Below are positions 20,584 through 25,205 of a stretch of DNA of 64,000 nt, one piece after another (position 1 is the first letter of the stretch; each line of letters opens with the position of its first letter). A model generated the notes under the pieces. It was not told the origin of the DNA and did not search any database. It was given only the letters and a program-made list of their open reading frames with translations. The translations under genes were made by a program, and so were the position numbers. This DNA comes from Hymenobacter profundi (GTDB lineage: Bacteria; Bacteroidota; Bacteroidia; Cytophagales; Hymenobacteraceae), in contig NZ_JAHWGL010000015.1 of assembly GCF_019334315.1 (NCBI RefSeq), forward strand, positions 1 through 64,000. Reading direction: 5' to 3'.

Positions 20584-22020
20584 TTATTTTAACTCCTGTA
20601 CCAGCCGCTCCAACTCGGCCAGTGTGGTTTCGCGGAAGCTAAGCGGCTCGCTGCTATGGCGCCCGGTGGTGATTTCCCGTACCGCCACATAGGGCGTGCC
20701 GCTCATATAGCGGATACCTAGTAGCACGGCCTTTTTGTTGGCAGGCACGTCCACAAAGTCGTAACCTGTGTCGGTGGGCTGGCCTAGCACAATGGTAGCC
20801 GCATCGTGTAGTACCAGCCGTACGCTGGTGTGCGTGTCGGGCTCTACGGCCGCCGTGAGGGTAGTAACGGCTTCGGCCGCGGGGCGCGGGCGGGCAGCCG
20901 CTACCCACCCCAGTTGCCCTACCCGAAATGCCTGTCGATCAGCGGCCGGTGCTTCTTCGTCAGCTACCGATGGTGTTGGCGAATCAGTTGAGTCGGCGCG
21001 GACCAGTAGGTCAGACGTTTCGGGTAGGGTGAAGCGGATGGGCACCAGCACTTTCACCTTCACAAAACGGCCTTCGCGCTGGCCGGGCGTCCAGCGGCCC
21101 GAGCTTTGCCGCACTACCCGCAGGGCCTCCACATAGAAGCTGCTACCCAAGCTGCGCAGTACCTTAGGCGTTAGCACCCGCCCTGCTTCGTCAATCACCG
21201 CCGATACGTAAACAGTGCCTTGCGTGTGGCTATCGGCCGCTGCGGCGGGGTAGCGCACGAGTTTGTTCAGGGCAGCCGGGCCACTCTCATACGCGGGCAT
21301 GGGTTGCGCCTCTGGGTATATTTGGTTGTCTACTACTGCTTCCGGGCCAGCTGCCACCCACCGGATAGGTTGCCGGCGCCCGCTCCGCCCATAATATAGC
21401 GGCATTCCCGATCGGGCAGAAGCCGGAAGCTCCACCTGCACGGCGCGGCCCTCGGCTAGGCGCAGGGACTGGCCGTTGCCCGTGGCCCGCACCAATACTG
21501 CGCCACCCGGTATAAGCAGTTGGTCATCATTGGTTTCGGACACAATGTTGGAGAGCAGTACATCAGCCAGCCCGTAGCACTCTTTCAGTTCCACAAACAC
21601 AGGGCCGGTTACGGGCTCCCCACGCGCGTCGACCAACGTGCCCGCCGGAATGCGTACAACGGTGCCTTCCCTACCCCGCACTTCGGCCAGTTGGGTAGGG
21701 TCTATCTTATGGTACTCGCTGGCTTTCAGGGTGAGGTCGTAGAGACGCGCTTCGGCGGGTGGCGGCGCGGTGGTGTCGCGGGGCACTATGGCGCGGCGCG
21801 CGGCTCCTGGCCGGATGAGCGGAGCATTGGCTTGGGTAGGGCGCTCTACTCGGTGCCAGGTTAGGGTATCGAGGCGGCGGGGTGTGGGGGCAGGCAGTGT
21901 GTCAACAGGTGATTCGGTTTCAGTGTCTGCTACCTCTGTATGAGCGGGCGTGTCGGACTGACAGCTGTAGAATAGGAAAGAAGCTAGGCCGCTGAGCAGC
22001 AAAAGGCGAAGGGTACGCAT
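20584..22020 (-). CDS. Lipoprotein with TonB C-terminal-like domain
   Basis: A 478-residue lipoprotein; MRTLRLLLLSGLASFLFYSC ends in a lipobox. A proline/threonine-rich stretch leads into a beta domain (TVVRIPAGTLVDARGEPVTG), common in Bacteroidota envelope proteins. Around residues 250-330 lies a TonB_C-like domain (YPAAAADSHTQGTVYVSAVI, then GRVLTPKVLRSLG and WTPGQREGRFVKVKVLVP). TonB_C domains normally carry energy to outer-membrane receptors, but a lipid-anchored version without an N-terminal helix cannot couple to ExbBD in the usual way. The C-terminal 120 residues are unassigned. It is divergent from blaI and M56-POTRA, and the shared upstream region holds the BlaI operator candidate. 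Confidence 0.75.
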   Translation of the reverse strand: MRTLRLLLLSGLASFLFYSCQSDTPAHTEVADTETESPVDTLPAPTPRRLDTLTWHRVERPTQANAPLIRPGAARRAIVPRDTTAPPPAEARLYDLTLKASEYHKIDPTQLAEVRGREGTVVRIPAGTLVDARGEPVTGPVFVELKECYGLADVLLSNIVSETNDDQLLIPGGAVLVRATGNGQSLRLAEGRAVQVELPASARSGMPLYYGRSGRRQPIRWVAAGPEAVVDNQIYPEAQPMPAYESGPAALNKLVRYPAAAADSHTQGTVYVSAVIDEAGRVLTPKVLRSLGSSFYVEALRVVRQSSGRWTPGQREGRFVKVKVLVPIRFTLPETSDLLVRADSTDSPTPSVADEEAPAADRQAFRVGQLGWVAAARPRPAAEAVTTLTAAVEPDTHTSVRLVLHDAATIVLGQPTDTGYDFVDVPANKKAVLLGIRYMSGTPYVAVREITTGRHSSEPLSFRETTLAELERLVQELK

Positions 22021-22223
22021 CGGACAAAATAACGGCTTCAGCAGCTATTCTGGTACAAATAGGGCGAAAGCATCAGCAATGGTACTAGGGTGGACGGTAT
22101 GTACATCGGTTATCGATAAAATCTCCCTTCGCCTAAGCAGTTATTTATACCGCAATTGTCTTTATATCAGTCATTTAAAATATTTACTAAAACATATTTT
22201 AAATTTTGAACACCGAATCAACT

Positions 22224-22257
22224 TATAAATACGTTATTAAACGTATAAATACGTTAT
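22224..22257 (+). promoter_or_regulatory. Candidate BlaI operator
   Basis: Two 14-base direct repeats TATAAATACGTTAT start exactly 20 bases apart (22224 and 22244), two helical turns. They overlap a perfect palindrome AACGTATAAATACGTT (22240-22255). The site ends 9 bases before the BlaI start codon, so binding would repress blaI and the M56 gene; it could also influence the divergent TonB-C lipoprotein. Confidence 0.6.
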
Positions 22258-22266
22258 ACTTACAAC

Positions 22267-22659
22267 ATGGAAGAGCTAACTAAAACGGAGGAGCGCATTA
22301 TGCATGTGCTCTGGAAGCTGAAACGGGCTTTCGTTAAAGACATTATTCAGCATTTAGACGAAGATCCTGCGCCACCTTACACCACCATTTCTTCGGTGGT
22401 GCGCATTCTGGAGCGCAAGGGCTATGTGAGTTTTAAGGCTTACGGCAAGACGTATGAGTACTCGCCTGTCATCAGCAAGCTGGAATACCGTGCGGCTTCT
22501 CTTAAGCGTATGCTGACACAGTATTTCGACAATTCGCCATCGGCACTAGTGTCTTTTATGGTAGAGGAAGAAAGTCTGAGCCCTGAGGAGGTGCAGCGCC
22601 TCCGCCAACTGCTGGACCAGGCTTCCCCCGATACAGCCCCTACCGATGATGCCCACTAG
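22267..22659 (+). CDS. BlaI/MecI/CopY family transcriptional repressor
   Basis: A 130-residue winged-helix repressor. The N-terminal half has the family layout LTKTEERIMHVLWKLKRAFV (helices 1-2) and YTTISSVVRILERKGYVSF (recognition helix and wing). The C-terminal dimer domain contains ALVSFMVEEESLS, the region where BlaI-type repressors are cut by their antirepressor protease. The gene overlaps the M56 gene by 14 bases, so the two are translationally coupled. A palindromic operator candidate lies directly upstream, so autoregulation is likely. Its regulon and signal are unknown, though the POTRA sensor of its partner points to the cell envelope. Confidence 0.93.
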   Translation: MEELTKTEERIMHVLWKLKRAFVKDIIQHLDEDPAPPYTTISSVVRILERKGYVSFKAYGKTYEYSPVISKLEYRAASLKRMLTQYFDNSPSALVSFMVEEESLSPEEVQRLRQLLDQASPDTAPTDDAH

Positions 22660-24109
22660 CCTGCTGCTCTATCTGGCCGAGGTTAGCTTCGGCACAGTGG
22701 TCTTCGCGCTGCTTTACCAACTGGTATTTGCCCGGCTGCCCACTTTCCGCTGGAACCGTTGGTACTTGCTGGTTAGCCTGGCTGCCAGCTTTGCGCTGCC
22801 GTTGCTGGTCGGATTTGCTTCTCGGATGACCCCTACCACTGGTAGTGCCTCAAGCGGCCCGCTGCCTGCCCTACCCCTACAGTGGACGCTGGCAGCCACC
22901 TCCACCTCTCCACTTCTTGATACTCCTGATTATCTGCATAGCCTGGGGTGGGTGGTACTGGCAGTATACGCTGCTGGCGTCTGCTACCAGGTATGGCGTA
23001 CGAGCCGCAGTTTGCGGCAACTGCATACGCTGGTGACTTCGCACGACAGCATTCGTCTGCCGACGGGCCGCCTGGTGCAGTTGCCTACGCAGACGTTACC
23101 AGCATTTTCCTTTGGGCCGTTCATTTTTCTTTCGTCGCTGCATAAGTCGCTTAGTGAGACAGAGCGGCAGCTGTTACTCCGGCACGAACAAGTGCATGTG
23201 CGCCAGCACCACACGTTGGATCTGCTGGGCTATGAGGTGGCCGGTTGGCTACTCTGGTTCAACCCAGCTGTGCGCTACCTAGGTCGGCAGGTGCGGCAGG
23301 TGCACGAATATCTGGCCGATGCCACTGTAGCACATCTACCCGGCATCGGGATTCGCCACTACGGCAACCTACTACTAAAGCTAGTGACTCAGCAGCCTCC
23401 CTTCCGCCTGACGCATACTTTTTCTTCTTCCATTTTAACGCAACGTATTCTTATGCTCACCACCTCTGTTCCTACCCGCTGGCAAAAACTTCGTTTTTTG
23501 CTTGTTGTCCCTGTGACCGCTATGGCATGGGCTGTTACTTCCTACGCGGGCTCTCCCTTGCCGCCTACCTCACCCTCGACAGAAACCGCTTCGTCTTCGC
23601 CTACGACCGCACAAACAGGCCCTACCATCCAGCATATTACATGGCGGGGCAATAAAGTGGTATCGTCAGCGCGCCTTACGCAGGCGCTGGGACTGGCACC
23701 CGGCGCCGCGTACGACTCGGTAGCCCTCGGCCAGCGTCTGCAATCCAATGTCACGTCGCTATACATGGACCAGGGTTATTGGTTTTTTTCAGTTGAGCCT
23801 AGCGTCGTTCCGCAGCCGAATGGCACCGTGGATTTGGTTTTTACTATTTCGGAGGGAAAGACGGCCCGACTAGGAAAGATTACGCTACAGGATACACGTA
23901 CCCCTGCGGTATCTACCGCACCACTGCTGGCTCAATTGCCTCTGCGCACCGGGGACTTATTTAGCCGCAAGAAACTTTTTGAAAGTCAGAAACTGCTGGC
24001 CGAGGCTAGTCAAAACCCTGCGGCATCTGTACTTGTGAATCCCATACCCGTAATGCAGCCTAATGGACCAGCAACAGTAAATATAGAATTTGTGTTGCAG
24101 CCGAAGTAA
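22646..24109 (+). CDS. M56 (BlaR1-like) antirepressor protease fused to BamA-type POTRA domains
   Basis: A 487-residue inner-membrane zinc protease. Helices TM1 (about 4-28) and TM2 (33-52) are followed by TM3 (around 92-112), the cytosolic zinc site H180-E-Q-V-H184 with third ligand E221 in HEYLAD, and TM4 (about 288-308). In BlaR1 the periplasmic C-terminus is a penicillin-binding sensor. Here it is instead two POTRA-like repeats, about 329-408 (ITWRGNKVVSS..L, SLYMDQGYWFFSVEPS, TISEGKTARLGKITLQD) and 409-487 (PLRTGDLFSRKKLFESQKLL, VNPIP, VNIEFVLQPK). These closely follow the last POTRA domains of Bacteroidota BamA as I remember them. By inference it senses outer-membrane protein assembly and releases BlaI by cleavage. 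Start 22646 or 22649. Confidence 0.85.
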   Translation: MMPTSLLLYLAEVSFGTVVFALLYQLVFARLPTFRWNRWYLLVSLAASFALPLLVGFASRMTPTTGSASSGPLPALPLQWTLAATSTSPLLDTPDYLHSLGWVVLAVYAAGVCYQVWRTSRSLRQLHTLVTSHDSIRLPTGRLVQLPTQTLPAFSFGPFIFLSSLHKSLSETERQLLLRHEQVHVRQHHTLDLLGYEVAGWLLWFNPAVRYLGRQVRQVHEYLADATVAHLPGIGIRHYGNLLLKLVTQQPPFRLTHTFSSSILTQRILMLTTSVPTRWQKLRFLLVVPVTAMAWAVTSYAGSPLPPTSPSTETASSSPTTAQTGPTIQHITWRGNKVVSSARLTQALGLAPGAAYDSVALGQRLQSNVTSLYMDQGYWFFSVEPSVVPQPNGTVDLVFTISEGKTARLGKITLQDTRTPAVSTAPLLAQLPLRTGDLFSRKKLFESQKLLAEASQNPAASVLVNPIPVMQPNGPATVNIEFVLQPK

Positions 24110-24218: not shown

Positions 24219-25205
24219 ATGCTTCTACGTTTTTCTTTGTGGCTGTTGTTGGGCACGCTGCTCACTGCCTGCCAGCCCGATCTGGATTCTGGGCCGTTGC
24301 TCGATTTTGTGGGGGGCTCACGCTACACTGCTTACACGCGCATTATCAACACGCCAGCCGATACACTGACGTATAAAATATTCGCAGCCACGACCAAAGC
24401 ACAGAACGGAGACACAGCAGACGCGCCCAATCTGACGAAGATGCGTGTTACGGTGACGTATAATCCACGCTTAAATCCTGTTGACTACATTGGCCTATCA
24501 ATTTCAGACCATTACAACACAGGCGATACGCTGGTCGTATTTGAGCGGAGTATGAAGCGGAAAACGTTCGCTTTTCAAAACACTTTCAGTACGCGCTCTA
24601 CAAGCGGCCACGAAACTTGGCGATTTGAGTCTACAGATGAAGATGGTAATAAAAGCACCACCAGCTTTCGGGTTACGCTCCGCAATGCCGACTCTACGCT
24701 TGCCTACCATCGCTACACGGTAGGTTTGCAGGCACCACGCACGCCCACTAGCCGTTCCTACTTGGCATTGCTACCGGGCCTGACATTTCCGCGCTACATA
24801 GGTTTTAGAGCTGATTCTACTGGGGTTGCCTATTCAGATGTGTACGGACTGATTGATTTGATTTATGTGCCTCGCGCTGATAATGCAGCTGTACTAGCTT
24901 CGCCCTCAGCAGAGCTAGTACCGTTAAGTGCTTTATGGCCTAAAGGCAGTTCCACGCGCCGCATCACGCTCTTGCGCTCAACAAGCTTAAACGCCAGCAC
25001 CTTTGCCGCCGCTGCCTCCACAGCCGACTTGACGGCAGCATATAACAATAGTACCAGCCCCATTAACCCCCAAACCGAAACCTTGAAGAAAGGCGGCGTG
25101 TATGCTTTCCGAACGCAGGAAGACAAGTTTGGGCTTATTTATGTGGAAAATTTGACTACCACGCCTATTCCATCGGCTAAGTTGCAAGTACACATTATGA
25201 GGTAG
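24219..25205 (+). CDS. Hypothetical lipoprotein downstream of M56-POTRA
   Basis: A 328-residue lipoprotein; MLLRFSLWLLLGTLLTAC ends in lipobox LTAC. The rest is rich in Thr, Ser and Arg and appears all-beta, with segments like MRVTVTYNPRLNPVDYIG and WRFESTDEDGNKSTTSFRV that recall immunoglobulin-like folds. I recognise no family. It lies 109 bases after the M56-POTRA gene on the same strand, with no terminator between them and one after it (25228), so it may be in the BlaI operon and act as an envelope effector or sensor partner. That role is inferred from position only. Confidence 0.7.
   Translation: MLLRFSLWLLLGTLLTACQPDLDSGPLLDFVGGSRYTAYTRIINTPADTLTYKIFAATTKAQNGDTADAPNLTKMRVTVTYNPRLNPVDYIGLSISDHYNTGDTLVVFERSMKRKTFAFQNTFSTRSTSGHETWRFESTDEDGNKSTTSFRVTLRNADSTLAYHRYTVGLQAPRTPTSRSYLALLPGLTFPRYIGFRADSTGVAYSDVYGLIDLIYVPRADNAAVLASPSAELVPLSALWPKGSSTRRITLLRSTSLNASTFAAAASTADLTAAYNNSTSPINPQTETLKKGGVYAFRTQEDKFGLIYVENLTTTPIPSAKLQVHIMR

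Follow-up and report, generated by a model that had tools for sequence, protein, structure and literature searches.

A BlaR1-BlaI-type gene pair of Hymenobacter profundi with a BamA-type POTRA pair as predicted sensor

We analysed a stretch of 64,000 nucleotides (the window) that covers positions 1 to 64,000 of contig NZ_JAHWGL010000015.1 of Hymenobacter profundi, whose genome consists of 5.24 Mb in 220 contigs. The window contains a gene pair made up of a blaI repressor gene and a gene for an M56 metalloprotease that ends in two POTRA domains (the M56-POTRA protein, or fusion). The system is of the BlaR1-BlaI kind with a new sensor. The reading that we consider rather likely is that the pair forms a proteolytic switch of the BlaR1/BlaI type with a swapped, BamA-type POTRA sensor, whose ligand most likely comes from outer-membrane-protein assembly. 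What we observed on its behalf is the domain architecture, the motifs, the predicted fold, the grouping in trees, the linkage to the repressor and a set of conserved dyads. The two genes are:

22267-22659, plus strand: blaI, a winged-helix repressor of 130 amino acids (Pfam Penicillinase_R, E 8.4e-31)
22646-24109, plus strand: M56-POTRA protease gene, 487 amino acids (Pfam, AlphaFold2 model, structure matches)

The genes overlap by 14 bases on the same strand. BlaI covered the Penicillinase_R profile in full (1-115 of 115), and MecI (1okr) aligned with it at E 1.5e-10. According to passages of PMC9834060, the zinc site of BlaR1 is cytoplasmic (E242xxxD246), the protein cleaves itself in the loop LSHS/F284 and makes a zinc-dependent cut in BlaI between N101 and F102; read off the printed MecI alignment, that cut would correspond to F97-M98 in the window BlaI. 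The nearest named relative at the locus in a two-pattern genome scan was Hymenobacter citatus, with an M56-POTRA protein 81% identical to that of the window. The window BlaI was 69-96% identical to 16 relatives, and as a separate observation the repressor is far better conserved than the protease, which had 44-81% identity to 14 relatives.

The protease was matched by Pfam Peptidase_M56 with 52.8 bits (cut-off 31) and by Pfam POTRA with 59.3 bits (cut-off 21.3). Its N-terminal part also fell weakly on the NCBIfam model for BlaR1 (E 2.4e-05), under that model's own cut-off. A profile of 17 N-terminal halves found BlaR1 alone in the PDB at E 0.01 (8exp, E 8e-10, residues 9-300), and the alignment takes in HEXXH, ExxxD and the LxHxF self-cleavage loop. 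Residues H180, E181, H184, E221 and D225 were invariant in all 22 aligned fusion proteins, the window included, and H180-E-x-x-H184 and E221 were so also in a separate alignment of 15. In the loop, at which cleavage itself is predicted from sequence, L255 was kept in 100%, H257 in 86% and F259 in 95% of the 22 fusions. The AlphaFold2 model, built with 22 sequences (pLDDT 77.1, pTM 0.51), has four long helices in its N-terminal half, predicted to span the membrane, and within residues 6-265 this half matched BlaR1 8exs with Z 16.8 (3.8 Å, 225 residues). The parts of the protease half are:

22652-22723, plus strand: membrane helix 1 (residues 3-26), a predicted helix in the BlaR1-aligned region
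22745-22828, plus strand: membrane helix 2 (residues 34-61), a predicted helix
22931-23041, plus strand: membrane helix 3 (residues 96-132), a predicted helix
23183-23197, plus strand: zinc motif HEQVH (residues 180-184), aligned to HEXXH of BlaR1
23306-23320, plus strand: EYLAD (residues 221-225), counterpart of E242xxxD246 of BlaR1
23408-23422, plus strand: LTHTF (residues 255-259), aligned with the self-cleavage loop LSHS/F284 of BlaR1
23477-23545, plus strand: membrane helix 4 (residues 278-300), a predicted helix followed by a low-confidence linker to about residue 323

The remainder of the protein is a POTRA pair of the kind that stands last in BamA:

23621-23857, plus strand: POTRA a (residues 326-404), like POTRA4 of BamA; full-length Pfam POTRA match (1-79 of 79), profile and structure match
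23858-24106, plus strand: POTRA b (residues 405-487), like POTRA5 of BamA; profile, model and structure match

In the model, residues 327-486 form two beta-alpha-alpha-beta-beta units, with pLDDT 79-92 in most ten-residue blocks and 71 in the lowest two. After rescoring of Foldseek matches the C-terminus gave Z 18.1 with the BamA part of 5efr (2.5 Å, 158 residues), Z 16.8 with BamAD of Flavobacterium johnsoniae (9n2f), Z 16.3 with POTRA4-5 of Escherichia coli (3q6b) and Z 12.7 with TamA. A profile of the fusion POTRAs found Bacteroidota BamA at E 1e-36 to 1e-38; on the BamA of H. profundi it scored 150 bits at residues 290-448 (POTRA4-5) and at most 8.7 bits at the other POTRAs of that protein. 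With NCBIfam, residues 325-415 fell on BamA models (E 1e-13), under those models' own cut-offs. The window protein is without the C-terminal outer-membrane beta-barrel and stops at residue 487, where the BamA barrel would begin. At E 0.001, Peptidase_M56 and POTRA were both matched in all 22 aligned fusions, the window included, and TonB_C in none of them.

The homology of M56 and BlaI would also suit a beta-lactam sensor of the BlaR1 kind. However, a penicillin-binding domain was absent from the Pfam matches of all 22 fusion proteins, and we rejected this reading as scarcely conceivable, the neighbouring genes not having been screened for beta-lactamases.

These results bear on the original prediction, which had been made from the letters of the window. 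It had placed a BlaI and M56 protease pair at 22267-24109, and both open reading frames lie there with Pfam scores above cut-off. The BlaR1 zinc site that it had named (H180-E-x-x-H184, E221) is present and invariant in both alignments, its four membrane helices agree with the four long helices of the model, and its two POTRA-like repeats in place of a penicillin-binding or TonB_C domain are borne out by the Pfam POTRA match and by the lack of matches to the other two. The comparison with BamA that it had proposed, by structure prediction and Pfam profile, returned a POTRA fold with the scores given above. The phrases that it had attributed to the last POTRA domains of BamA align with POTRA4-5 of the H. 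profundi BamA, so this attribution was exactly right.

A survey of such fusions and of their linkage to blaI, which it had also suggested, was carried out on 84,980 species genomes with two peptide patterns, by which relatives without the patterns are missed; 80 of 179 relatives were kept. The POTRA half was recognised by profile in 23 of the 80 loci, another 56 held M56 proteins without it, and one (L078; L and G numbers are our locus and genome labels) ends before this region. All 23 fusion loci belong to Cytophagales: 19 are from Hymenobacter, one is from Catalimonadaceae, one from a metagenome-assembled genome (MAG) of Flammeovirgaceae and two are in a Cytophagales MAG; one of the 23 is broken (L075) and another is cut off inside the POTRA part (L076). 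The blaI gene adjoins the fusion gene in 22 of the 23, the exception (L077) starting at a contig end, and in two loci (L073, L074) the order is reversed, with blaI after the protease gene. In an overlapping second genome set, blaI was adjacent in 16 of 17 cases, the exception being the broken copy of G016. Three broken M56-POTRA copies were seen altogether: L050 in G090, L051/L075 in Hymenobacter siberiensis and L052 in G016. Two M56-POTRA/BlaI modules, one of which is divergent, occur on separate contigs of Hymenobacter sp. IS2118 (L062, L063).

In an unrooted tree of 42 rows the POTRA halves formed one group against BamA (support 100/99). Likewise, the M56 halves of the fusions formed one group (support 100/100) in an unrooted tree of 55 rows, namely 18 fusions (the window and 17 of the 23 loci) and 37 other proteins (34 of the 56 and three of the four paralogues of H. 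profundi). Both trees show a single group of fusions, which is consistent with one fusion event whose halves have been kept together since. Recent copying of the POTRA pair from a Hymenobacter BamA was considered and rejected, as the fusion and BamA POTRAs are split by the 100/99 branch with long stems.

That the gene is a chance fusion, a mis-assembly or a decaying gene without function is very improbable. Three of the 18 copies listed within the genus are indeed broken, but the active site and POTRA core are conserved across several families, each half is one group, and the dyads described below are conserved. Chance or a sequencing chimera is excluded because relatives have the same architecture.

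The other M56 proteins (n = 60: the 56 loci L079-L134 and four of H. profundi) carry TonB_C in 44 cases. Por_Secre_tail was found in 14 of the same 60 proteins, M23 peptidase in 6, Plug in 6 and GldM in 2. It is possible that such M56 proteins are sensors made from parts of other envelope machines. In two further M56 candidates, L281 (alignment to residue 390) and L282 (to residue 350), no POTRA was found. On a short contig of the H. profundi genome, two M56 genes are direct neighbours (L004, L005).

Upstream of blaI we found two tandem dyads and a candidate promoter element:

22220-22235, no strand: putative operator dyad 1, AACTTATAAATACGTT, exact match to the dyad pattern
22240-22255, no strand: putative operator dyad 2, AACGTATAAATACGTT, likewise matching the dyad pattern exactly, 20 bp from dyad 1
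22254-22261, plus strand: candidate -7 promoter box, a weak match that overlaps the end of dyad 2

Exact dyads occur in the H. profundi genome only at 22220 and 22240, and the tandem pattern, which the window has once, did not arise in any of 100 shuffles. The promoter of the module's first gene was then compared in 24 places, namely the window, L078 and all but one of the 23 fusion loci, and dyads were accepted if they began with AA, ended with TT and had no more than four mismatches out of ten. All 24 promoters have at least two 16-bp dyads exactly 20 bp apart and 17 of them have three, with a consensus of AACTGAT/AACGTAT and its complement. The H. siberiensis promoter keeps three dyads despite its broken M56-POTRA gene. 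In 16 of the 22 promoters with blaI first, the window's own not being among them, the motif TAnnTTTG, which we take to be the Bacteroidota -7 box, lies 4 nt upstream of the blaI ATG; with the presumed box ending there, the blaI mRNA would have no leader or almost none. The box is 23 nt upstream of the ATG in L074, in which the protease gene precedes blaI. Judged from these sequences, BlaI probably autoregulates the module through the tandem dyads.

Further targets were searched for with the tandem pattern, allowing up to three mismatches, in 28 genomes (sets of 18 and 11, with G053 in both). The module's own promoter was recovered in 16 of the 18 and 8 of the 11 genomes, and no tandem site was found in G053, G090 and G016, the last two being among the three genomes with a broken copy. 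The reversed pattern, used as a control, gave four sites in the first set (G092, G151 and twice G152) and two in the second. Fourteen other tandem sites in the 28 genomes were of a different, AACTAA type; in the three inspected, a blaI paralogue was the first (L179, L180) or second gene (L181) from the site. The position of other blaI paralogues beside 20-bp-spaced AACTAAT...ATTAGTT dyads suggests a specificity code among the members of the BlaI family. An AT-rich site in G151 fitted neither type.

A tandem site of the module type was present outside the module in two species, at 3205-3240 of L174 (Hymenobacter polaris) and at 7730-7765 of L062 (Hymenobacter sp. IS2118). The H. polaris site precedes a gene for a thioredoxin-like protein (Pfam AhpC-TSA/Redoxin) with an apparent signal peptide, and in Hymenobacter sp. 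IS2118 the gene behind the site, downstream of an M56-POTRA gene, encodes a protein with 45% identity to that of H. polaris. The thioredoxin-like gene as a second target is a lead only, noticed in the sequences after the fact and not as a planned test.

Looser patterns were also applied. In the H. profundi genome, single dyads with one mismatch gave five sites beyond the two exact ones, the reversed control also gave five, and the three of the sites that were inspected lie inside open reading frames. Exact single dyads occurred in 9 of 12 other genomes, with five sites off the module (G092, twice G150, G151 and G153), and that of G092 is flanked by the ends of two genes. A promoter-plus-dyad pattern had 33 matches in 18 genomes versus 17 for its reversed control; the 33 comprise the module's own promoter, sites of the AACTAA type, and other single matches, among which two have AACCG/CGGTT arms. 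Three matches to this pattern were found in the H. profundi genome, none of them at the module.

A conserved third gene of the operon was considered and rejected, since gene contexts vary between loci. A TatD-like gene neighbours the module in nine loci and a trp operon in six, labels that were given by reading the sequences and not by family search; the window and H. citatus share one context and the rest are single. In the window, a TonB_C-domain protein (20584-22020, minus strand) is divergent from blaI, and a protein with no Pfam match (24219-25205, plus strand) follows downstream. Both flanking genes adjoin the module elsewhere only in H. citatus among the 23 loci compared.

The confinement of module-type tandem sites to the module's own promoter in most genomes searched, together with the lack of a conserved third gene, would fit another explanation, that the M56-POTRA protein is itself the effector, clipping or sequestering proteins related to the beta-barrel assembly machinery (BAM), and that BlaI merely keeps its level low. 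We regard this as improbable, because the zinc site faces the cytoplasm in BlaR1, again according to passages of PMC9834060, and the M56-POTRA protease, if it shares that topology, could not get at substrates in the periplasm. In addition, the link to BlaI has survived the change in gene order.

In the mechanism that we propose, BlaI dimers, bound to the two tandem dyads that overlie the blaI promoter, would keep their own operon repressed. The M56 protein would lie in the inner membrane with its zinc site in the cytoplasm and its POTRA4-POTRA5 pair in the periplasm, where the pair would bind a ligand, most likely a client or partner of outer-membrane-protein assembly rich in beta-strands. Binding would move the helices as in BlaR1, the self-cleavage loop would leave the active site and BlaI would be cut near F97-M98. 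The operon would then be derepressed, and in some species the thioredoxin-like protein with its apparent signal peptide may be induced as well. Repression, topology, BlaI cleavage, the ligand and the link to outer-membrane assembly are what we infer here.

Sensing of outer-membrane-protein assembly by the POTRA pair is plausible in view of what passages of three papers describe. BamD contacts BamA near POTRA5 and near POTRA1 (PMC11592675), BamP of F. johnsoniae binds POTRA4-5 of BamA (PMC12611786), and an OmpC mutant that stalls is retained at POTRA3-5 and BamD (PMC10945584). With these contacts at or near POTRA4-5, a ligand from outer-membrane assembly is reasonable. No passage on the interface was found in PMC7316895. 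We would also suggest, as a tentative extension that may well prove wrong, that a POTRA4-5 decoy catches stalled outer-membrane proteins or freed BAM partners, that one proteolytic step frees the sensor operon and the genes for envelope folding or redox helpers from repression by BlaI, and that Bacteroidota M56 proteins, with ends such as TonB_C, Plug, GldM or POTRA, make up a sensor family imitating parts of trans-envelope machines.

The nature of the ligand was weighed with a comparison of conservation in 22 fusions and 20 BamA sequences, using a limit of 85%. Both families share 26 positions that are conserved with the same residue, and the POTRA4-like half holds 20 of these (among them I-W-GN, GY-FF and EG); another 20 were conserved only in the fusions or differently, and 31 alignment positions were conserved in BamA only, 21 of them in the POTRA5-like half. 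Seven of these 21 have the same residue in the fusions at under 85%, and the other 14, the HV..R helix included, have another majority residue. The mean column entropy (1.13 in POTRA a and 1.55 in POTRA b) agrees with the divergence of the POTRA5-like half.

Several of our results weigh against a switch that reports on outer-membrane-protein assembly. The 14 replaced positions make simple docking of a partner that recognises POTRA5 of BamA doubtful, which is evidence from aligned sequences and not proof. The overall confidence of the structure model is moderate (pTM 0.51). Apart from the promoter of the module itself, the regulon as found takes in only a thioredoxin-like gene, and this in two species. 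The 28 genomes searched yielded no further tandem site of the module type, and thus none before a bam, chaperone or periplasmic protease gene at the stringency used. Homologues of the thioredoxin-like gene number 14, in 9 of 19 genomes, and just two of them have the dyads. In H. polaris the gene contains an in-frame TAG, and in the H. profundi genome there is no homologue at E 1e-30.

The distribution of the fusion is another such point. In a survey of 150 genomes of the family, 66 of them from the same genus (H. profundi included) and 84 from other genera, the fusion was among the matches listed in 18 of the 66 (15 intact and 3 broken) and in none of the 84. The circuit looks dispensable because this distribution is patchy. 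In a sample of 395 genomes of the phylum, with just three candidates scored per genome, full-length matches were found in two, both of this genus, together with one broken copy.

The replaced POTRA5 positions, the thioredoxin-like protein as the sole second target found and the many other periplasmic modules borne by M56 relatives would all be compatible with the same switch reading a signal unrelated to outer-membrane-protein assembly, such as a dedicated periplasmic partner, a peptide or the envelope redox state, with the POTRA pair serving only to dock proteins or strands. This explanation seems to us unlikely, though far from negligible. The POTRA4-like half, however, keeps the BamA core with its 20 of 26 shared positions, and the pair matches POTRA4-5 of the H. 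profundi BamA and none of its other POTRAs. As for the redox variant, the periplasmic part of the window protein is without cysteine, which speaks against direct thiol sensing.

We still favour a POTRA pair that responds to outer-membrane-protein assembly, and a one-step envelope-stress circuit, as the original prediction had it, is a reasonable hypothesis. The switch type, the POTRA4-5 sensor, the repressor linkage and operator-like dyads on the module's own promoter all stood, and the regulon found was narrower than the words envelope-stress circuit imply. That prediction had been made with no knowledge of a described system of this kind, and no description of an M56-POTRA system was found in the open-access papers searched, which were judged mainly by title and start of the abstract, so that the negative outcome does not prove that none is in print. 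What looked like two mentions, of M56 and of BlaI, in the passages covered of a Bacteroidota BAM paper (PMC12578637) were a catalogue number and the author name Goodrich-Blair, and the BlaI match in PMC12204202 was an author name as well.

BlaR1-type switches are known as antibiotic sensors, and here the chassis bears a copied piece of the outer-membrane assembly machine. The cell may use a spare part of the machine that builds its outer membrane as a gauge of the state of that membrane. Should the POTRA pair report on outer-membrane-protein assembly, the result would be an envelope-stress pathway of one step, found in a phylum with a BAM different from the E. coli one. A general rule that can be tested is that M56 sensors of Bacteroidota take over domains of the machines that they monitor, and in such a modular chassis the ligand, the protease and the promoter are separately testable.

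Compared with known systems, the gene pair resembles BlaR1/MecR1 and BlaI/MecI of Staphylococcus and Bacillus in having a repressor and a four-helix M56 metalloprotease with HEXXH, ExxxD and an LxHxF loop, as well as a C-terminal sensor that is, by the topology predicted here, on the far side of the membrane. It differs from them in that a BamA-type POTRA4-5 pair replaces the penicillin-binding sensor and in that the targets found are not beta-lactamases. With the M56-TonB_C proteins of Bacteroidota it shares the phylum, the M56 domain and, in most cases, an adjacent BlaI, whereas POTRA takes the place of TonB_C and the fusions form a separate group in the tree. The sensor is like POTRA4-POTRA5 of BamA in sequence and predicted fold, but unlike BamA the protein has no barrel, has its membrane helices at the other end and has most of the BamA-specific POTRA5-half positions (14 of 21) replaced. 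The DegS-RseA-sigmaE pathway of Proteobacteria reports on outer-membrane protein assembly by proteolysis, through an anti-sigma cascade. If our suggestion for the ligand is right, the M56-POTRA/BlaI pair would likewise be a proteolytic report on outer-membrane protein assembly, made by unrelated proteins and with a one-step cleavage of a repressor instead of an anti-sigma cascade.

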